A stretch of DNA of 64,000 nucleotides. Origin: Salsipaludibacter albus. GTDB lineage: Bacteria > Actinomycetota > Nitriliruptoria > Nitriliruptorales > Nitriliruptoraceae. Below the pieces are notes generated by a model that saw only the letters and a program-made list of their open reading frames with translations, ran no database searches and had not been told where the DNA came from. Of the stretch, positions 34,757-47,495 are shown piece by piece. Numbering within the stretch: position 1 is the first letter of the stretch; every line of letters starts with the position of its first letter. The position numbers and the translations under genes are program-made. Location of the stretch: NCBI RefSeq assembly GCF_019798055.1, contig NZ_JAHOPH010000016.1, forward strand, positions 1 through 64,000, written 5' to 3'.

Positions 34757-36919
34757 ATGCCCGACGTCACGCCGCCCGACGACGGGCGCCGTCACGTCCG
34801 CATCGGCGTCGACACGGGTGGCACCTTCACCGACGTGGTCGCCTTCGACGAGCGCACGGGTGTGCTCACCACGACCAAGACGCCGTCCACGCCGGCCGAC
34901 CCGGCCCGGGGCTTCATGGCCGGGATCGACAAGATCCTCGGCCAGCTGGGTGGCGACGGCAGCGACGTGGCCGCCGTGACCCACGGCACCACCGTGGCCA
35001 CCAACGACCTGCTGGAGGACAAGGTCGCCCACATGGGCCTGGTCACCACGGCGGGGTATCGCCACGTGCTCGAGATCGCCCGCCAGAGCGTCCCGGACGG
35101 CTACGGCAACTCCTACTTCTGGGTCAAGCCCGACCGGATCGTCCCGGTCGACCGGGTCCGCGAGGTCGCCGGACGCCTGGACGTCGACGGCACCGAGGTC
35201 ACGCCGCTGGACCTCGACCAGGCCCGTGCGGTCGCGGCGTGGTTCCGGGATCGCGGGATCGACACGATCGGGGTGTGCCTCCTGCACTCCTACGCCGACA
35301 GCTCGCACGAGGAGCAGTTGCGCGACGTCCTGGCGGAGGTCCACCCGGACGCGGTCGTGTCGATCAGCTCCGAGGTGCTGCGCGAGTACCGCGAGTACGA
35401 GCGCACCGTCACCACCCTCGTCGATGCCTCCGTCAAGCCCCGCGTCGCCGCCTACATCGAATCGATCCGGCGACGTCTCGACACCTACGTGTCGACAGAG
35501 GATGGCGCCCCGAAGGCTGCCGACGGAGCATGCGGGCCCGGAGGGCCCGCGTTCAGCATCATGAAGTCCAACGGCGGGGTGATCAGCGCCGAGGAGGTCG
35601 TCCACCAGCCGATCACGACGGTGCTGTCCGGCCCGGCCGCCGGTGCGCTGGGCGCGGCCGTCATCGCACGCGAGGCGGGCTGGGACCGGCTGTTGACGTG
35701 TGACGGGGGCGGGACGTCCACCGACGTGTCGGTGGTGCTGGACGGGCGCCCGACCCTGACCACCGAGGGCTCGGTCGGACGCTTCCCCTCCAAGATCCCG
35801 ATGATCGACATCGTCACGGTGGGCGCGGGCGGCGGGTCGATCGCCTGGCTGTCACCCGAGGGGACGCTGAAGGTCGGCCCCCGGTCGGCCGGCGCCGACC
35901 CCGGGCCGCTGTGCTACGGACGGGGCGGGACCGATCCCACCATCACCGACGCCCACCTGGTCCTGGGCCGGATCCCGCCCCACCTGCTGGGCGGCGAGAT
36001 CCCCCTGGACGTCGACGCTGCCCGGACCGGGATCGCCGACCTGGCCGGCCGCCTGGACATGGACGTCGAGGCGTGCGCCCGCGGGATCCTCGAGATCTCG
36101 GCCTTCAACCAGGCCAACGCGATCCGCCAGGTCACCGTCCGCCGGGGACTGGACGTGCGCGACTTCGCGATGGCGGCGTTCGGCGGCTCCGGGCCACTGC
36201 TGGTCTGCCGGCTGATCGACGTGCTGGGGCTGGCCGCGGTGGTCGTCCCGCCCGACCCGGGCAACCTGTCGGCCTTCGGGCTGCTGACCGTGGACGTGCG
36301 CAACGACTACGTCCAGACGGCGGTCGCCCGAGACACCGACCTCGACCTCGCCGCGGTCGGTGCCGTCTACGACGACCTGCGTGACCGGGCCGCCGACGCG
36401 CTGGTTCGCGAGGGCTTCGACCAGGCGGACCATGTCTTCGAGCGCACCGCCGACCTGCGCTACGACGGCCAGGCCTTCGAGGTCCGGGTCGACGCGCCCG
36501 CGTCCGGCCCGGTCGACGCGACGTTCCGCGACGCCGTCGTCGAGGCGTTCCACGACGCCCACGAGCAGCTGTACGGCTACGCCTATCGCGACGACCCGCG
36601 CCACCCGGTCGAGTGGGTCAACCTGCGCGTCACGGGGGTCGGGCCGATCACCCGGCCGCGGCTCCCGCGGCTGGACGCCCGGGACGACGGCACGGTCGCC
36701 GACGCCCGCTCGGGGACCCGGCGGGTCCACTTCACGGACTGGCACGAGGCCCCGATCTACTGGCGCGGTGACCTGCGGGCCGGCGACGTTGTGGACGGGC
36801 CCGCGGTGGTCGAGGAGTTCGGCTCGACCATCCCCGTGCACGACGGCTTCCGGGCGACCGTCGACGAGCTCGGCAACATCGTGGTGCGCGTGCGGGACGA
36901 CAGTGGGGAGCCGGCATGA
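34757..36919 (+). CDS. hyuA: hydantoinase/oxoprolinase A subunit (HyuA)
   Basis: A 720-residue HyuA-type ATPase. RIGVDTGGTFTDVVAF near residue 15 and VTHGTTVATNDLLEDK near 75 are the family's nucleotide-binding signatures; LTCDGGGTSTDVSVVLDG and GAGGGSIAWL mark the second actin-like domain. With HyuB it opens cyclic amide rings (5-oxoproline, hydantoins) or carboxylates ketones, using ATP. ATG 34757 gives the conserved N-terminus. Its neighbour ggt makes 5-oxoproline a plausible substrate. It overlaps hyuB by four bases. Confidence 0.92.
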   Translation: MPDVTPPDDGRRHVRIGVDTGGTFTDVVAFDERTGVLTTTKTPSTPADPARGFMAGIDKILGQLGGDGSDVAAVTHGTTVATNDLLEDKVAHMGLVTTAGYRHVLEIARQSVPDGYGNSYFWVKPDRIVPVDRVREVAGRLDVDGTEVTPLDLDQARAVAAWFRDRGIDTIGVCLLHSYADSSHEEQLRDVLAEVHPDAVVSISSEVLREYREYERTVTTLVDASVKPRVAAYIESIRRRLDTYVSTEDGAPKAADGACGPGGPAFSIMKSNGGVISAEEVVHQPITTVLSGPAAGALGAAVIAREAGWDRLLTCDGGGTSTDVSVVLDGRPTLTTEGSVGRFPSKIPMIDIVTVGAGGGSIAWLSPEGTLKVGPRSAGADPGPLCYGRGGTDPTITDAHLVLGRIPPHLLGGEIPLDVDAARTGIADLAGRLDMDVEACARGILEISAFNQANAIRQVTVRRGLDVRDFAMAAFGGSGPLLVCRLIDVLGLAAVVVPPDPGNLSAFGLLTVDVRNDYVQTAVARDTDLDLAAVGAVYDDLRDRAADALVREGFDQADHVFERTADLRYDGQAFEVRVDAPASGPVDATFRDAVVEAFHDAHEQLYGYAYRDDPRHPVEWVNLRVTGVGPITRPRLPRLDARDDGTVADARSGTRRVHFTDWHEAPIYWRGDLRAGDVVDGPAVVEEFGSTIPVHDGFRATVDELGNIVVRVRDDSGEPA

Positions 36920-39762
36920 GCGACCAGGCGAGCCCCCGCGGCCGGGCCGGCGACCATCCGTTCGACCCGGGCACCGGCAACCTCGGACCGCTCGACGACG
37001 CCGCCGACACGATCGATCCGGTCGTGCTCGAGATCGTCCGCGGCACGCTCGCGTCGATCGAGAAGGAGGTCGAGGACGCGATCGGCCGGACGTCGCGGTC
37101 GCCGATGATCCGCGACGCGCACGACTACCGCGCCGGGATCCACGACCGCCACCTGCGCAAGCTGACCGGGCGGTCCTACTCGGCCCTGGTCCAGCCGATC
37201 GTGCGGGACTTCCCGGTCGAGGAGATGGTCCCCGGCGACGTGTTCTTCCACAACGACGTCTACGGGTCCGAGGGCGGCATCGGCCACCTCCCGGACCTGT
37301 GCATCACGGTCCCGGTGTTCGCCGATCCCGACCCCGACGACGGGGACGCGTCCCTGCCCGTGCTGGCGTTCGTGCAGGCGTTCGGCCACCACGACGACAT
37401 CGGCGGTGCCGTGCCCGGCTCGATGCCCAGCGACGCCACCTCGGTGTTCGTCGAGGGCCTGATCGTCCCCCCGATCAAGCTGTGGGACGCCGGTGTGCCC
37501 AACCGCGCGGCGCTGACGATCATGACCCGCAACTCGCGCATGCCGGACTCGCTGGCGGGTGACCTGCAGGCGGAGGCGTCGGCCTGCCTGATGGGCGCTC
37601 GCCGCGTCGCCGAGCTGTTCGCCCGCTACGGCACCGATGTCGTCGAGGCCGCATTCGACGAGATCGTGGCGACCTGCGCCCGGACCTACCGCCGCGAGAT
37701 CCTGTCCCGGATCCCCGACGGCAGCTGGACCTGGGAGGACTACGCCGAGCACGACGGGGTCGACGAGCCCCGGCTGCACGCCCAGCGGATCACCCTCACC
37801 AAGACCTCCGACGACACCCTGCCCGACGGTGGCGGGCGGTTGACGATCGACTTCGCCGGCACCTCGCCTCAGGCCCGTGGTCCGATCAACCACGTCGGCG
37901 ACCGGGCCGACGGGAACTTCCTGAAGAAGTGGCTCGCCCCGATCCTGCGCAACCTTGCCGAGACACCGGAGCGAATGGCCGAGCTGGACGTCAACGAGGG
38001 CGTGGTCGAGTTCATCGACATGCGCTTCCCGGAGCCCGGGACCCTGCTGACCCCGAACTTCCCCGCCCCGACCAACGCCCGCACGTTCGTGATCCTGCGT
38101 CTGCTGGGCGTGCTGGCCGGGGTGCTGGCCAAGGCCGTCGACGGCGAGATGCCCGCCGACCAGGAGACCATCCGCTACACGGGCGTGTACGGCACCCGGG
38201 CGGACGGCTCGTCGTACCTGATGCGCGAGGTGCTCGGTGGTGGCTCCGGGGGGCGCCCCTACGCGGATGGCGAGGACACCATCCACGTCGTCCCGGACTC
38301 GCGCAACCTCCCCACCGAGTTCACCGAGTCCCGGTTCCCGTTCCGGGTCGAGCGGCTCGGGCTGGCGATCGACTCCGGGGGCCCGGGCCTGCACCGGGGC
38401 GGACTGGGCTACGACAAGCACGTCCGGATGCTCGTCGACGCCTCGTTCATGTCGATCGCCGACCGCTCGATCCTGTCGTGCTGGGGCGTGCGTGGTGGAC
38501 GGGCCGGCCGACCGTTCCGGGTCACCATCGACCCCGGCGGCCCGGACGAGCGCGAGGTGGACGCGCTGGCCGACGACGCGCCCGTGAAGGCCGGCGAGCT
38601 GATCCGGATCCAGACCACCGGCGGAGGTGGGTGGGGCGACCCGCTGGAGCGCGACCCGGCAGCGGTGGCCCGGGACGTGTGGTGGGAGAAGGTGTCGGTG
38701 GACGGTGCGCACGACGACTACGGCGTGGTGTTCACCGACGACCTGGCCGACGTCGACGTCGCCGACCTGCACGACGCCCCGGCCGTCGACCACGACGGCA
38801 CGGCCGCGCGACGGCAGGCGATGCGCGACGAGCGCGGCGAGCCGTCCTTCTTCGACCGCGGCCCCGGGTTCGCCCGCCTGCATCCGGACGGCGCCACCCA
38901 GGCCGACGTCGACACCCCGGCTGACCCGACGTCCGGGTCGGGGTTGGCCGCGGTGCGTCGTGGTCTGGTTGGATGCGACCGGCGGGCCCGACGGTCCGGC
39001 GACCCCACCCACGACGGGCTGACGATGCTGATCTCGACCATGCAGGTGCAGGAGGCCCAGCACGCGCTGATGGCCGACCTCGACGGCCTGGCCGACGCCG
39101 ACCTGGCCGCACCGAGCAGGTGTGAGGGCTGGACCCGTGGCCACGTGCTCAGCCACGTCGCCCGCAACGCCGACGCGCTGGTCAACCTGTGTCGCTGGGC
39201 GTTGACCGGTGACCCCACCCCGATGTATCCGTCCCAGGAGTCCCGCAACGCCGACATCGCTGCCGGCGCCGAGCGGGGCATCGACGAGATCGTCGCGGAC
39301 CTCGAGGCGACCAACGAGCGACTGCTGGACGCCATGGGGGAGGTGGAGGGCGCCGTGGCGGTCGACCCGTCCGTCGCGGCCCGCGACCTGCGACTCGGGG
39401 ACCTCGAGACGGGTCGGGTGGTCCCGGCACGCGACCTGCCGTGGCTGCGGTTGCAGGAGGTCCAGGTGCACCACCTCGACCTGGACCTCGGACTGCGCCC
39501 CCAGGACTGGATGCCGGCCTGGGTCGCCGCCGGGCTGCCGCGGGTGTGGCGTCGGATGGCCGGGCGACTGGACGACCCGCCTCGGCTGGTCGTGCGTGGG
39601 CCCACCGGCGACGACGTCATCGATCCGGCCGGCAGCGGGGCCACGATCGTCGGCACCGCCCCGGACCTGCTCGTGTGGCTGCTCGGACGCTCCGACGCCG
39701 ACCAGCGTGCCCGGCTGTCCGTCGAGGGTGGTGGGGACCTCCCCGCGCTCCCGGCCTACTGA
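36916..39762 (+). CDS. hyuB: HyuB subunit fused in frame to a mycothiol-dependent maleylpyruvate isomerase-like domain
   Basis: A 948-residue open frame. Residues about 30-680 are hydantoinase B: TIDPVVLEIVRGTLASIEKE, HNDVYGSEGGIGHLPD, VFFHND and GGGGWGDPLERDP near its end, all normal for the family. With no stop codon the frame runs through about 25 residues of Arg/Gly-rich sequence into residues 704-948, a DinB/MDMPI domain (SRCEGWTRGHVLSHVARNAD, then QEVQVHHLDLDLG with likely metal ligands). This looks like a true fusion as sequenced; a frameshift near the junction (38920-39020) or separate translation from ATG 39025 are alternatives. The HyuB part works with HyuA. Confidence 0.85.
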   Translation: MSDQASPRGRAGDHPFDPGTGNLGPLDDAADTIDPVVLEIVRGTLASIEKEVEDAIGRTSRSPMIRDAHDYRAGIHDRHLRKLTGRSYSALVQPIVRDFPVEEMVPGDVFFHNDVYGSEGGIGHLPDLCITVPVFADPDPDDGDASLPVLAFVQAFGHHDDIGGAVPGSMPSDATSVFVEGLIVPPIKLWDAGVPNRAALTIMTRNSRMPDSLAGDLQAEASACLMGARRVAELFARYGTDVVEAAFDEIVATCARTYRREILSRIPDGSWTWEDYAEHDGVDEPRLHAQRITLTKTSDDTLPDGGGRLTIDFAGTSPQARGPINHVGDRADGNFLKKWLAPILRNLAETPERMAELDVNEGVVEFIDMRFPEPGTLLTPNFPAPTNARTFVILRLLGVLAGVLAKAVDGEMPADQETIRYTGVYGTRADGSSYLMREVLGGGSGGRPYADGEDTIHVVPDSRNLPTEFTESRFPFRVERLGLAIDSGGPGLHRGGLGYDKHVRMLVDASFMSIADRSILSCWGVRGGRAGRPFRVTIDPGGPDEREVDALADDAPVKAGELIRIQTTGGGGWGDPLERDPAAVARDVWWEKVSVDGAHDDYGVVFTDDLADVDVADLHDAPAVDHDGTAARRQAMRDERGEPSFFDRGPGFARLHPDGATQADVDTPADPTSGSGLAAVRRGLVGCDRRARRSGDPTHDGLTMLISTMQVQEAQHALMADLDGLADADLAAPSRCEGWTRGHVLSHVARNADALVNLCRWALTGDPTPMYPSQESRNADIAAGAERGIDEIVADLEATNERLLDAMGEVEGAVAVDPSVAARDLRLGDLETGRVVPARDLPWLRLQEVQVHHLDLDLGLRPQDWMPAWVAAGLPRVWRRMAGRLDDPPRLVVRGPTGDDVIDPAGSGATIVGTAPDLLVWLLGRSDADQRARLSVEGGGDLPALPAY
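39025..39762 (+). CDS. alternative separate gene: mycothiol-dependent maleylpyruvate isomerase-like protein
   Basis: If the junction in hyuB is not a real fusion, the DinB-fold domain could be made alone from ATG 39025 (245 residues, start MLISTMQVQEAQ) or ATG 39040. Proteins of this size are usually free-standing in actinobacteria and use mycothiol in thiol transfer or isomerisation. No clear ribosome site precedes 39025. It occupies the same reading frame as the end of hyuB and the two calls exclude each other only in part. Confidence 0.45.
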   Translation: MLISTMQVQEAQHALMADLDGLADADLAAPSRCEGWTRGHVLSHVARNADALVNLCRWALTGDPTPMYPSQESRNADIAAGAERGIDEIVADLEATNERLLDAMGEVEGAVAVDPSVAARDLRLGDLETGRVVPARDLPWLRLQEVQVHHLDLDLGLRPQDWMPAWVAAGLPRVWRRMAGRLDDPPRLVVRGPTGDDVIDPAGSGATIVGTAPDLLVWLLGRSDADQRARLSVEGGGDLPALPAY

Positions 39763-42248: not shown

Positions 42249-43397
42249 TCAGCGGCGGTCGTTGCGACGGGCGACGAGGTCGGCCAGGGTGGCGACGGCG
42301 ATCTCGGCGGGGGTCTTCGAGCCGATGTCGAACCCGATCGGGCGGACGATCCGGTCGAGGTCGGCGTCCGTGCGTCCCCGCTCGCGCAACGGCCCGACGT
42401 GGGGCCCTTCGTGGCGCGCCGAGCCCATCAGGCCGATGAACCGGGCGTCGGTGTCCAGGGCCGTGTCCAGCATGTCGACCAGCTCGTCACGGTGGTGGTC
42501 GGTCACCACCACGTCGGTGGTCGGGTCGGCCGCCTCGGGCGTCGCCGCGACCACCATGGGCGACGGGTCCTCGTCGGTGACCGGGGCGGTCGGCGCGTCG
42601 CGCTCGGCGACGCGCGGATCCACCAGCACCGTCCGGTAGCCCAGCTCGCGACCCCACGCGAGCAGCAGCGCCGACAGGGGCGAGGCGAAGACGGCCATGA
42701 GCGTCCCGACCTCGCGGTCGTCGTCCCCCTCGCCATGGGCGAGCGCACACGAGTCGTCGTGGACGTGGCCGGGCTCCCCGTGGTCCGGGCCGGCTGCCAC
42801 GTCGTGTGCGGCGCCGTCGTGCCCGGCGTGGTCGTGCTCGGCGTGGTCGTGCCCGGCGTGGTCGTGCTCGGGAGGTGGGGACGACACATCGCCATGGCCG
42901 GTGTCACCGGCCAGCAGGTCCAGCGCATGCGGGACGAGCTCGAGCACCGCCTCGACGGACTCGCGTGCCCCGGACGGGCTGCCGGGGACGGCCAGGACGA
43001 GGCTGGTGCCACGGGTCGCCGCGACGGATCGTGACAGGTCCGCCAGGGGGGTCGAGGCGCGACCGACCGCCCGCATCACCTCGCCGAACCCGGGCAGCAC
43101 CCGGTCGGTGACGGCATGGAGCGCCTCCGGGGTGACGTCACGGGGTCCGAGCCCGGTGCCACCGGTGACCACGACCAGCCGGGCGCCGTCGGCGCAGGCA
43201 GCGGCGATCGCGGTGGACAGGTCGTCGACCTCGTCGGGAACCACGCGGCGGTCGATCGGTGCGTGTCCGGCCTCGGCGAGGAGGTCGGCCAGCAGGTCGC
43301 CCGAACGGTCCTCGCGGGTGCCGTGGTGGACCCCGTCGGAGGCGGTGATCACGGTGGCGGGGGGTCGCGTCGGCGTCGTCGTGGGTGCCTCGGACAT
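42249..43397 (-). CDS. MogA/MoaB domain fused to an XdhC C-terminal domain through a His-rich linker
   Basis: A 382-residue fusion. Residues 12-165 are a MoCF-biosynthesis (MogA/MoaB) domain with the molybdopterin site GGTGLGPRDVTPEA (79-92) and VLAVPGSPSG. Residues 178-221 contain 12 histidines, mostly as HDHAGHDH-type repeats, resembling the metal-storage loops of CooJ, HypB or UreE. Residues 231-382 are the Rossmann part of XdhC/CoxI (GYRTVLVDPR, VVTDHH, FIGLMGSARH, IGFDIGSKTPAEIAVA), but its glycine-rich first loop is altered to VFASPLS. MogA adenylylates molybdopterin for metal insertion; XdhC holds and delivers the cofactor. ATG 43397; the gene diverges from coxD. Confidence 0.87.
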   Translation of the reverse strand: MSEAPTTTPTRPPATVITASDGVHHGTREDRSGDLLADLLAEAGHAPIDRRVVPDEVDDLSTAIAAACADGARLVVVTGGTGLGPRDVTPEALHAVTDRVLPGFGEVMRAVGRASTPLADLSRSVAATRGTSLVLAVPGSPSGARESVEAVLELVPHALDLLAGDTGHGDVSSPPPEHDHAGHDHAEHDHAGHDGAAHDVAAGPDHGEPGHVHDDSCALAHGEGDDDREVGTLMAVFASPLSALLLAWGRELGYRTVLVDPRVAERDAPTAPVTDEDPSPMVVAATPEAADPTTDVVVTDHHRDELVDMLDTALDTDARFIGLMGSARHEGPHVGPLRERGRTDADLDRIVRPIGFDIGSKTPAEIAVATLADLVARRNDRR

Positions 43398-43558: not shown

Positions 43559-44572
43559 ATGACCGAGTCCGGCCAGTCCGCCCCCACCCCGACCGAGTCC
43601 GCGCCCGGGTCCGCCCAGCCGGCCCCAGGTGACCGGCCGACCGGTGACCGGCTGACCGACGACCGGGGTGCGCTGGCGCCACGTGACCTCCAGGAGCGGA
43701 TGCGCCAGGAGGCCTACCTCGCCGACCGGGGCCTGGCGACGGCGGTCTCGCTGGCCCTGCGACTGGGTCGCCCGTTGCTGCTGGAGGGGGACGCGGGCGT
43801 GGGCAAGACCGAGGTGGCCAAGGTGCTCGCCCGGATCCTGGACGTCGAGCTGATCCGGCTGCAGTGCCACGAGGGCATCGACGCGTCCCAGGCACTCTAC
43901 GACTGGGACTACCCCCGCCAGCTCATGGCCCTGCGCGCGATGGAGGCACTGGGGGCCGCGCCCGACGGCTCGGTGGAGCACGCCGCCGAGGGGGCGTCGC
44001 TGGACGAGGTCTCGGACCGGCTCTACACCGAGCGGTTCCTGCTGGAACGGCCCCTGCTGCGTGCGCTGCGCTCGGGGGGGCGGGCCGTCCTGCTGATCGA
44101 CGAGATCGACCGTGCCGACGACGAGTTCGAGGCCTTCCTGCTGGAGATCCTGTCGGACTTCCAGGTGTCGATCCCCGAGCTGGGCACCATCGCCACCGCG
44201 ACGCCACCCGTGGTGGTGCTGACCTCCAACCGGACCCGCGACCTCCACGAGGCACTGCGTCGTCGGGCGCTGTACCACTGGATCGACCACCCGGACGCCG
44301 CCACCGAGACCGAGATCATCCGCGTGCGGGCCCCCGAGGTCCCGGCCGGGCTGGCCCGGAGTGTCGCCGACGTGGTCGTGCGGCTGCGCCAACTCGACCT
44401 GTTCAAGCCACCGGGCGTGGCCGAGACGCTCGACTGGGCGCGTGCGTTGACCCTGCTGGACGTGTCGGCGCTCGACCGGGACGTCCTGGTCGACACCCTG
44501 TCCGCGCTGGTCAAGGACCACGACGACCTGGCGCGGGTCCGTGCGGACCTGGACCGGGTGCTGGGCGGGTGA
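43559..44572 (+). CDS. coxD: MoxR-type AAA+ ATPase (CoxD family)
   Basis: A 337-residue AAA+ protein. Walker A GDAGVGKT at 77-84, Walker B VLLIDEIDRAD, sensor 1 TSNRTRDL. In CO oxidisers CoxD is a chaperone-type ATPase needed to build the Cu/S part of the active site; MoxR partners usually work with a vWA protein, here the next gene. The first 40 residues are Pro/Thr-rich and disordered. ATG 43559 opens the plus-strand maturation operon; it overlaps coxE by four bases. Confidence 0.92.
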   Translation: MTESGQSAPTPTESAPGSAQPAPGDRPTGDRLTDDRGALAPRDLQERMRQEAYLADRGLATAVSLALRLGRPLLLEGDAGVGKTEVAKVLARILDVELIRLQCHEGIDASQALYDWDYPRQLMALRAMEALGAAPDGSVEHAAEGASLDEVSDRLYTERFLLERPLLRALRSGGRAVLLIDEIDRADDEFEAFLLEILSDFQVSIPELGTIATATPPVVVLTSNRTRDLHEALRRRALYHWIDHPDAATETEIIRVRAPEVPAGLARSVADVVVRLRQLDLFKPPGVAETLDWARALTLLDVSALDRDVLVDTLSALVKDHDDLARVRADLDRVLGG

Positions 44573-45729
44573 GTGCCGTGTCCCGGGACCTGACGATCGG
44601 TGTGCCGGACACGTCGGTGCCGGGTGGCGGACGCGACCTGCGGACCGAGGGGATGGCGTTCGTGGATGCCCTGCGCACCGCCGGGCTGGCGGTGCCGCCG
44701 TCGCGCGCCATCACCTTCCTCGAGGGGCTCGCGGCGCTGGAGCCGCCCGACGTGCTGGACACGTTCTGGACCGGGCGGGCCACGCTCGTGGCCCACCCGG
44801 ACGACCGCGATGTCTACGACCGCGTCTTCCGTGCCCACTTCGTCGGCGAGTGGGCCCCGCCGGACAGGGCGTCCGAGGCGGCCGAGCCCCAGACCGTCTG
44901 GGTGGACGGGACGGGGGCCGACGACCAGCCCGAGGCCCCCGACGACGAACAGCACCCCGGCGCGGTCGCCAGCGCGACGGAGGCCCTGCGCCATCGCCGG
45001 TTCGACGAGGCGTCCGACGAGGAGCTCGCGGCGATGCGCCGGCTGATGTCGCGCATCGAGCTCGACCTGCCACGACGACGGTGGCGTCGGACCCGCCCCC
45101 ACCGTCGCGGCGCCCGCCTGGACGTCGGCCGGTCGCTGCGCCGCGCGATCCGGACCGACGGCGAGGTGGTCGACCGGGTGTGGCGTCGACGCCGTGTCCG
45201 GCGCCGGTCGCTGGTGCTGCTGCTGGACGTGTCGGGCTCGATGTCGGACTACAGCCGGGCGCTGCTGCAGTTCGCGTTCTCGGCAGCGGTCAAGGCCGAC
45301 CGGGTCGAGGTGTTCGCCTTCGGGACGCGGCTCACGCGACTGACCGACCAGCTGCGCGAGTCCGATCCCGACGCCGCGCTGTCCGGGGCCGCGCGCGCGG
45401 TCGTCGACTGGGACTCGGGCACCAGGATCGGGGCCAGCCTCGACACGCTGCACCGCCGATGGGGTCGGCGCGGCGTCCTGCGCGGGGCCGTCGTGCTGGT
45501 CGCCTCCGACGGGCTCGAGCGTGGCGAGGTCGAGCTGTTGCGTGCCTCGATGGAGCGCCTGGCCCGCCAGGCCCACGCGGTCGTCTGGGTCAACCCCCTC
45601 AAGGTCGACCCCCGCTACGAGCCCCTCGCACGGGGGATGGCCGCCGCGCTGCCCTCCGTCGACCACTTCCTCCCCGGACACGACGTCGCCAGCCTCGACG
45701 CGCTGGCCGACGTGATCGCCGCCGTGTGA
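44569..45729 (+). CDS. coxE: CoxE-type von Willebrand A protein
   Basis: A 386-residue cytosolic protein of the CoxE family. The metal-ion-dependent adhesion site is LLLDVSGSMSDYS near residue 225, followed by FAFGTRLTRLT and the late DGLERGEVELL. The N-terminal half includes an acidic stretch, then a strongly basic region (RRRWRRTRPHRRGAR). It is expected to bind the CoxD ring for molybdoenzyme maturation. GTG 44569 overlaps the coxD stop; GTG 44578 is an alternative start. Confidence 0.9.
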   Translation: MSAVSRDLTIGVPDTSVPGGGRDLRTEGMAFVDALRTAGLAVPPSRAITFLEGLAALEPPDVLDTFWTGRATLVAHPDDRDVYDRVFRAHFVGEWAPPDRASEAAEPQTVWVDGTGADDQPEAPDDEQHPGAVASATEALRHRRFDEASDEELAAMRRLMSRIELDLPRRRWRRTRPHRRGARLDVGRSLRRAIRTDGEVVDRVWRRRRVRRRSLVLLLDVSGSMSDYSRALLQFAFSAAVKADRVEVFAFGTRLTRLTDQLRESDPDAALSGAARAVVDWDSGTRIGASLDTLHRRWGRRGVLRGAVVLVASDGLERGEVELLRASMERLARQAHAVVWVNPLKVDPRYEPLARGMAAALPSVDHFLPGHDVASLDALADVIAAV

Positions 45730-45762: not shown

Positions 45763-46899
45763 ATGGATGAGCTGCAGCAGGTGCTGAGTGCCGCACGGGA
45801 CCAGGACCGACAGGACCGGCGGTGGGCGCTGGCGACGATCGTGGCCGTGTCCGGATCGACCTATCGGCGGGCCGGTGCGCGGCTGGTCGTGCGGGACGAC
45901 AACAGCTGGGTCGGCAACCTCTCGGGTGGGTGCCTGGAGGGCGAGGTGCTCGAGCTCGGTGGCGCATCGATCGACGACGGCCGACCACGACGCGACTTCT
46001 ACGACCTGACCGCCGACGAGGAGGCGATCTGGGGCTGGGGACTGGGCTGCAACGGTGCGATGGACGTGTTCGTCGCACCCGACCGGGTCGCACGAAGCCA
46101 CCTCGACCTGCTGGAGCGCGGACGGGCGACCGGCGCCCCGTTCCGGCTGGTCACGATCATCGCCGACGGGTCCGACGGGTCCGACGGGTCCGACGGGTCC
46201 GACGGCGACGCGGCAGCGGATGGCCCCGAGGTGGGCGCGACCGCCCTGCTGACGGCCGACGGCGCGGTCGACGGCGCACAGGACGTCGGCGACGAGGTGG
46301 TCGCGGCCGCGCGGCTGACCGACGAGACCACCGTGCTGGAGGTCGGGGAACGCGAGGTGTTCGTCGAGCACACCGGGCCCCCGCTGCGGGTGCTTGTCTG
46401 TGGTGCCGGACACGACGCGATCCCGGTCGTGGCGCGCGGGGCGTCGCTGGGTTGGGACATGGTCGTCGTCGACGACCGCGCGTCGTTCCTGGACGAGGAG
46501 CGATTCCCGGAGGCAGCAGGGTTCGTCCACGCCGACCCCGGTGACGCGGCCGAGGCCGCCGACGTCGGCCCCCGGGACGCGGCGGTGGTCATGAGCCACA
46601 ACTTCCTGCGCGACGCGCAGTACCTGGCATCGCTGGCACCGGTCGGGCTGTCCTACCTGGGGATGCTCGGGCCGGGCGCCCGGCTGGAGCGTCTCGTCGA
46701 CCACCTGCTCGAGCAGGGCACCGACGTTCGCGACCACCTCGGGGCGGTGCACGGCCCGGCCGGGCTCGACCTCGGGGCCGAGGGGCCCGACGAGATCGCC
46801 CTGTGCATCGTCGCCGAGGTCCTCGCCGTGCAGCGCGATCGCGAGGCCGGATTCCTGCGGGACCGCGGGGGGCCGATCCACCGCCCGGAGGACGGATGA
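45763..46899 (+). CDS. coxF: XdhC/CoxF-family molybdenum cofactor maturation protein
   Basis: A 378-residue two-domain XdhC protein. The N-terminal domain has ATIVAVSGSTYRRAGARLVV and GNLSGGCLEGEV; the C-terminal Rossmann domain has LVCGAGHDAIPV and YLGMLGPGARLE with GLDLGAEGPDEIAL. Between them (residues about 134-147) lies a simple DGS tandem repeat. XdhC-type proteins bind the sulfurated molybdenum cofactor and insert it into the large subunit. ATG 45763 follows coxE by 34 bases. Confidence 0.9.
   Translation: MDELQQVLSAARDQDRQDRRWALATIVAVSGSTYRRAGARLVVRDDNSWVGNLSGGCLEGEVLELGGASIDDGRPRRDFYDLTADEEAIWGWGLGCNGAMDVFVAPDRVARSHLDLLERGRATGAPFRLVTIIADGSDGSDGSDGSDGDAAADGPEVGATALLTADGAVDGAQDVGDEVVAAARLTDETTVLEVGEREVFVEHTGPPLRVLVCGAGHDAIPVVARGASLGWDMVVVDDRASFLDEERFPEAAGFVHADPGDAAEAADVGPRDAAVVMSHNFLRDAQYLASLAPVGLSYLGMLGPGARLERLVDHLLEQGTDVRDHLGAVHGPAGLDLGAEGPDEIALCIVAEVLAVQRDREAGFLRDRGGPIHRPEDG
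46165..46200 (+). repeat. 9-bp microsatellite, four perfect copies (GACGGGTCC)
   Basis: Four exact copies in frame encode Asp-Gly-Ser units in the XdhC-family protein linker; a degenerate fifth copy follows. Copy number is likely to vary among strains without a frame change. Confidence 0.9.
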
Positions 46900-47495
46900 C
46901 CACGGCGGATGCACTGGGCGTCGTCCTGGCGGCGGGTGCGGGGACGCGGTTCGGTGCCACCAAGCAGCTGGCCGAGGTCGCCGGCCGACCCCTGGTGCGC
47001 CATGCCGTCGACTTGATCGCCGCCGCCGGTCTGGACGTGCTGGTCGTGGTCGGCCACGAGGCCACCCGGGTCGCCGCGGCGCTGCCCGACGAGGTCGCCG
47101 GCCGCACCGTGCGCACCGTGGTCAACCCCGAGCCCGCCCGTGGCCAGGGCTCGTCGCTCGCGGTCGCGGCGGCAGCGGCGGGCCGGCGGCCGCTGGTCGT
47201 CGTCCTGGGGGACCAGCCGGGCGTGGTCCCGGACGACGTGGCACGGGTCCTGGTGGCGCTGGGGGAGGGGGCCGTGGCCGCGCGGATCGTCCACGACGAC
47301 GGTCCCGGCCACCCGGTCGGCCTGTCCGGCTCGCTGCACGACGACCTTCTGGCGTTGCGGTCCGACCGGGCCGGGCGTGACCTGCTGGACCGGCTGGAGG
47401 TGGTCGCCCTGCCGGCCGGCCACGCGCGACCGGTGGACGTCGACACGCCGGCCGACCTGGACCGGGCCACGGACGACCTGGGGGACGGGACGTGA
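46896..47495 (+). CDS. mocA: molybdenum cofactor cytidylyltransferase-like NTP transferase (MocA)
   Basis: A 199-residue nucleotidyltransferase. The N-terminal VVLAAGAGTRFGATKQL is the NTP-binding loop with its catalytic lysine; VVVLGDQPGV holds the metal-binding aspartate, and the C-terminus DVDTPADLDRA is standard for the group. MocA joins CTP to molybdopterin to make the cytosine dinucleotide form used by CO-dehydrogenase-type enzymes. That fits the two cox enzymes here. ATG 46896 overlaps the coxF homologue's stop. Confidence 0.88.
   Translation: MTTADALGVVLAAGAGTRFGATKQLAEVAGRPLVRHAVDLIAAAGLDVLVVVGHEATRVAAALPDEVAGRTVRTVVNPEPARGQGSSLAVAAAAAGRRPLVVVLGDQPGVVPDDVARVLVALGEGAVAARIVHDDGPGHPVGLSGSLHDDLLALRSDRAGRDLLDRLEVVALPAGHARPVDVDTPADLDRATDDLGDGT

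Follow-up and report, generated by a model that had tools for sequence, protein, structure and literature searches.

The transfer of activated molybdopterin to XdhC-type chaperones, which serve molybdenum hydroxylases, is poorly understood. One gene of Salsipaludibacter albus bears on it, as its product carries a MogA-type domain and an XdhC-type Rossmann domain on one polypeptide, with a histidine-rich stretch between them. The gene lies within the first 64,000 nucleotides of contig NZ_JAHOPH010000016.1; this whole stretch was analysed and is called the window here. Our reading, at a probability of about 0.62, is that this is a genuine protein with two functions in the last steps of molybdenum-cofactor maturation, in which a disordered tether couples MogA to the XdhC-type Rossmann half.

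Domain architecture and gene neighbourhood

The fusion, its parts and the genes next to it are as follows.

42249–43397, minus strand: MogA–XdhC fusion gene, 382 aa (ATG at 43397, stop at 42249, stop included in the span)
42933–43352, minus strand: MogA-type MoCF domain, residues 16–155 (PF00994, E 1e-30; motifs VPDE, TGGTGLGPRD and PGSPSGA)
42702–42902, minus strand: His/Asp-rich linker, residues 166–232, 13 His (168–227 predicted disordered, AlphaFold2 pLDDT <50)
42801–42871, minus strand: 15-bp tandem repeat, 4.7 copies, encoding part of the His tract
42732–42749, minus strand: CALAHG, C217–G222, an instance of C..AHG, which the truncated XdhC family conserves (modelled with a short helix, 215–220)
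42276–42701, minus strand: XdhC Rossmann domain, residues 233–374, lacking GxGxxG and any XdhC_CoxI domain ahead of it (PF13478, E 2e-24)
43559–44572, plus strand: CoxD-type MoxR AAA ATPase, divergent from the fusion (PF07728, E 8e-14)
44569–45729, plus strand: CoxE-type VWA protein (PF05762, E 3e-58)
45763–46899, plus strand: complete XdhC with CoxI and Rossmann domains and a GxGxx loop (PF02625, E 9e-22; PF13478, E 1e-30)
46893–47495, plus strand: MocA-type cytidylyltransferase (PF12804, E 5e-31; TIGR03310)

Both Pfam domains fall in one 382-residue frame, which bears out the MogA–linker–XdhC fusion described in the initial annotation; its placing of the gene in cofactor maturation also agrees with the position beside coxD–coxE–xdhC–mocA. 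The best PDB sequence matches were MoaB/Mog proteins for the first half (E about 1e-32) and the Mycobacterium smegmatis homologue of Rv0376c (2we7/2we8) for the second half (E 5e-14). AlphaFold2 modelled the whole fusion with a mean pLDDT of 77.9 and a pTM of 0.48 (24-row alignment), and the second half, from a deeper alignment of 69 rows, with a pLDDT of 86.6. A promoter and terminator scan found none, and no place in the plasmid records matched 80% of the fusion protein.

MogA is the molybdopterin adenylyltransferase, and molybdenum insertion itself is the MoeA step; the N-terminal half is thus not the molybdenum-insertion domain that it had been called. It scores 111 bits against TIGR00177 (cut-off 85), matches PDB 2is8 with E 2.8e-32, and retains all three motifs listed above, which we take to be MogA-like. 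It resembles the MogA-type molybdopterin adenylyltransferases of PDB 2is8 and 2pbq, and the protein differs from them in its long His-rich C-terminal extension and second domain. The fusion stays below the cut-off of the NCBIfam equivalog NF006932 (114.1 against 158 bits), as does P0002, a MogA joined to a complete XdhC (117.4 bits). Four proteins of this genome match PF00994, namely a CinA, a MoeA, a CinA-like protein and the fusion, which is the only MogA-type protein found in an assembly that is 97.3% complete. The same genome encodes four hydroxylase large subunits (PF02738), and there are four PF00384 matches, not all of which need be molybdoenzymes. A sole MogA-type protein with intact motifs, in a genome with four PF02738 subunits, favours a working MogA half, and we infer that both halves are active.

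The second half is that of an XdhC/CoxI chaperone (PF02625 plus PF13478; PDB 2we8, 3on5) in its Rossmann domain only. Its model aligned with 2we8_A over 144 residues (Z 16.8, rmsd 2.8), whereas PF02625 was absent from the fusion in the Pfam scan even at E≤1, GxGxxG is missing, and a conserved C..AHG is present instead. The initial annotation had rightly seen that the Gly-rich loop is lacking, but this is not a trait of the gene. GxGxxG at β1 occurs in 0/69 rows of the truncated XdhC family (three pattern matches lie elsewhere in the rows), 0/22 complete MogA–XdhC fusions and 0/11 CoxF rows, against 7/16 rows of ordinary XdhC. Since the loop is missing family-wide, the suggestion that the fusion relies on the neighbouring full XdhC to make up for it gains no special support.

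The C..AHG motif stands just before the Rossmann strand in 61 of the 69 truncated-family rows, and a few His (H.HD residues) often lie directly ahead of it. The C-terminal end of the fusion linker therefore corresponds to the native N-terminus of the short XdhC family, to which a His-rich extension has been added. In short XdhC proteins of Blastococcus and its relatives (L073, L085, L086, L090, L091, L093 and L109), C..AHG is lost and the proteins start at the Rossmann strand. Excerpts on the Rhodobacter capsulatus protein give the conserved XdhC cysteine as Cys82 (PMC2997495). For C217, the local profile alignment begins only at the Rossmann strand; MAFFT sets GEPGHVHDDSCA beside GTLGCAEFDDAA, an alignment too weak to be used for equivalence.

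Distribution and ancestry of the fusion

The architecture of the window was found in 3 of 35 genomes of the family: this genome (G000), G001 (70% identity) and G005 (54%). The rest of the family mostly has a stand-alone MogA, and many members have a separate short XdhC with 40–51% identity to the second half. In 10 of 13 family loci examined, the stand-alone truncated XdhC is divergent from CoxD-type AAA/CoxE genes, as the fusion is in the window. A scan of genome contigs gave 80 loci. Among them, L055 and L068 hold the two relatives of the fusion; the remaining loci up to L112 hold short XdhC genes, from Actinomycetota that include Amycolatopsis, Actinomadura, Saccharopolyspora and Blastococcus, and L113–L134 are XdhC of ordinary, CoxI or CoxF type. 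A scripted comparison placed cox genes near short XdhC in loci of this genome family; outside it, there were just isolated subunit matches in L061 and L063, and no conserved gene neighbour of the truncated XdhC was found within 6 kb.

Fusions of MogA with a complete XdhC (CoxI-like plus Rossmann) form a conserved family in Actinomycetota and were seen in 22 genomes from six other families of the phylum (246 and 396 of its genomes searched; frames within L148–L181); these loci were picked partly for long open frames, so 22 is not a frequency. L176, an XdhC match of this type at a contig edge without MogA, was not counted as fused. PF02625 was significant in both complete fusions scanned (P0002, E 9.5e-10; L151, E 2e-11). 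None of the 66 genomes of the window's class has a complete MogA–CoxI–Rossmann fusion. The complete fusions share with the window their domain order and Rossmann clade, and two of them (L160 and L152/L202) are likewise divergent from an AAA gene, most others having been read with short flanks. They differ in keeping the CoxI-like domain with its PPC and GTLGC[AS]EFD motifs, and their linkers are mostly His-poor.

Trees were calculated for the two halves with the truncated-family rows thinned to 33; alignment A4 excludes L172, whose MogA is partial. In the Rossmann tree, the complete fusions and the truncated family form one clade (100/98), apart from CoxF (100/98) and from ordinary XdhC. The truncated family itself is supported at 100/100, and the three window-type fusions branch near its base. 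That the truncated XdhC is a branch of CoxF is ruled out by the trees. The joint clade of complete fusions and short proteins suggests that the CoxI domain was lost with the tether in its place, and the window gene looks like a shortened MogA–XdhC fusion in which a flexible tether replaces the CoxI domain. In the MogA tree, however, the three window-type halves nest among the stand-alone MogAs of the family (99/98) and not with those of the complete fusions, so the fusion may have re-formed rather than been inherited. A topology that unites all fusion MogAs narrowly escapes rejection (p-AU 0.082), and a grouping of the three window-type fusions is neither rejected nor shown by either tree (p-AU 0.45, and 0.348 in the MogA tree). 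The fusion may have been inherited or may have formed anew. The MogAs of the window and G001 sit on a long branch, which could reflect relaxed constraint.

Proposed coupling of cofactor activation to handover

Work on R. capsulatus describes three tasks of XdhC: it binds the product of MoeA/MogA, shields this cofactor and, once sulfuration has taken place, passes it on (PMC2997495, PMC10609526). In the mechanism that we propose, the N-terminal half would serve as the organism's MogA and adenylylate molybdopterin (MPT). A disordered linker of some 60 residues, rich in His and Asp, would join it to a Rossmann domain that has lost XdhC_CoxI, and this tethering would increase the handover domain's local concentration where MPT is activated. 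Cofactor production may thereby stay near the machinery that serves handover to molybdenum hydroxylases and whose genes (CoxD, CoxE, XdhC and MocA) lie divergently next door. The adjacent complete XdhC could supply the CoxI domain that the fusion lacks. The Rossmann half would take part in cofactor handover, and the fusion probably couples activation to it. In Cnx1 and gephyrin, too, a MogA domain is joined to the protein that acts next in cofactor synthesis, but there the partner is MoeA, the Mo insertase. No MogA–XdhC fusion was described in the titles and abstracts found in the open-access library searched. The natural fusions, together with the CoxI-less branch and the lone Rossmann branch, are ready constructs for the study of direct channelling and of the roles of the parts of XdhC.

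The histidine-rich linker and a possible metal role

The initial annotation counted 12 His in about 45 linker residues, and this is exact for residues 178–222; residues 166–232 hold 13 in 67. The rest of the fusion has 9 in 315 (binomial tail 5e-8, against a composition null only), and among 39 likely genes of the window no other product has more than 6 His per 45 residues. Much of the tract is encoded by the 15-bp repeat, whose unit reads HAGHD/HAEHD, while the G005 linker carries a run of HG dipeptides. In the richest 45-residue span of each of the three window-type linkers, the counts are 12, 10 and 12 His, compared with 1–8 in 21 complete fusions (Mann–Whitney p 0.003, relatedness ignored). 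Across all 22 complete fusions, the linker ahead of the CoxI domain has 1–9 His, and His richness is thus not general to MogA–XdhC fusions. When homologues of the same domain order were counted, the linker was His-rich in 3/3 of the window type, including the two other family genomes, but not in the complete fusions as a group. The initial annotation had named homologues without histidines in the linker as evidence against its reading, and the complete fusions, with down to a single His, largely fit that description.

Among the unfused MogAs, long His-rich N-termini occur in G010 (13 His per 30 residues) and G026 (10 per 30), which belong to one genus; the G026 gene lacks a defined ATG start. 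With the three fusions, His-rich MogAs make up 5 of 24 family MogA rows after rows with identical tails were collapsed. The linker conserves neither sequence nor length, and many MogA proteins and complete fusions are His-poor. It appears to be mainly a tether whose His content is loosely selected or recurrent; against this, a neutral tether would not need as many His as all three window-type linkers contain.

Several explanations of the histidines can be weighed. The linker might be a mere spacer in which His arose by repeat slippage in GC-rich DNA, and the 15-bp repeat, the HG run of G005 and the great variability of linkers elsewhere agree with such neutral drift. Its expected product would be Ala/Gly/Pro, however, and the His enrichment recurs in 3/3 window-type linkers and in the unfused MogA of another genus. 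We consider drift rather unlikely. The tract could instead bind Cu, Ni or Zn and buffer or supply metal at MogA; it might, for example, trap the copper of molybdopterin during the Cnx1G/MogA step, to be freed when molybdenum enters. In work attributed to Kuper et al. in 2004, copper is said to sit on molybdopterin in Cnx1G. The high counts of the window-type linkers, the His-rich N-termini in the other genus and the H.HD residues ahead of C..AHG in truncated XdhC all point this way. On the other side are the variable sequence and length of the tract, its partial origin in a repeat, and the few His of many MogA proteins and complete fusions. A metal-binding linker is in our judgement unlikely. 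No Pfam or NCBIfam match to the folds of the His-rich metallochaperones HypB, UreE or CooJ was found in the fusion, and its tract is a candidate metal binder only.

Recurrent gain of His at either end of MogA is expected if metal near MogA matters, but it does not show that it does. Metal buffering near MogA by such tracts is possible. A more specific and quite doubtful version is that MogA of this family repeatedly gained disordered arms rich in His, which form the linker of the fusion in two genera and an N-terminal tail in a third and would hold metal, probably copper, by the molybdopterin-AMP site; the fusion would then both pass on the cofactor and shuttle or trap copper, and so connect the handling of copper and molybdenum while the cofactor matures. 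If metal does bind to the arms, the earlier structural indication of copper on molybdopterin would become testable in bacteria.

Delivery of copper to a CO-dehydrogenase-type enzyme was the rationale first offered for the linker. The usual CO dehydrogenase (CODH) motif is AYRCSFR, and the two hydroxylases of the window read AYRGAGR and PYRGAGR in place of the CSFR cysteine motif. The CODH large subunit of this genome lies on another contig, C78 (L194, 976–3414; TIGR02416, 1292 bits), where the motif was read as AYACSFR. It has its own CoxF, which ends in a YHS domain (L189, 877–2082; PF04945, E 5e-7, slightly below the cut-off). G005, whose fusion has 12 His, gave no CODH large subunit at E≤1e-100. 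These points make copper delivery to CODH a poor rationale for the linker. In its favour, the fusion adjoins CoxD/CoxE, and CoxF of Oligotropha (Afipia) carboxidovorans is reported, in excerpts of PMC4240915, to be necessary for copper insertion, with M107CPSHGTM as the suspected site. C..AHG is loosely like that site, standing 17 residues before the Rossmann strand as against 19 in CoxF (by eye). In alignment A3, also by eye, the cysteine of MCPSHGTM is two columns from that of the general XdhC CGG motif. Like the fusion, the Oligotropha protein has a Rossmann domain of XdhC type and is encoded near CoxD/CoxE, but it belongs to the CoxF clade, outside which the window domain falls, keeps the CoxI domain, and has counterparts with a C-terminal YHS-like domain in several CoxF-type records. 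We consider copper delivery very improbable.

Some further features were seen around these genes. No CoxD/E gene was found in the 18-kb stretch around the C78 CODH; another CoxE-like gene, the second, is found on this contig at a distance of about 67 kb. A C-terminal YHS-like domain was also recognised by eye in the CoxF-type XdhC of L138, L139, L145, L146 and L120; this module is a possible metal-binding appendage, which would fit a metal role of CoxF. In the window, the complete XdhC at 45763–46899 contains a repetitive SDGSDGSDGSDG stretch mid-protein. Positions 36916–39762 hold one 948-aa frame with two apparent parts joined, presumably a hydantoinase B-like protein and a C-terminus like that of a mycothiol-dependent enzyme.
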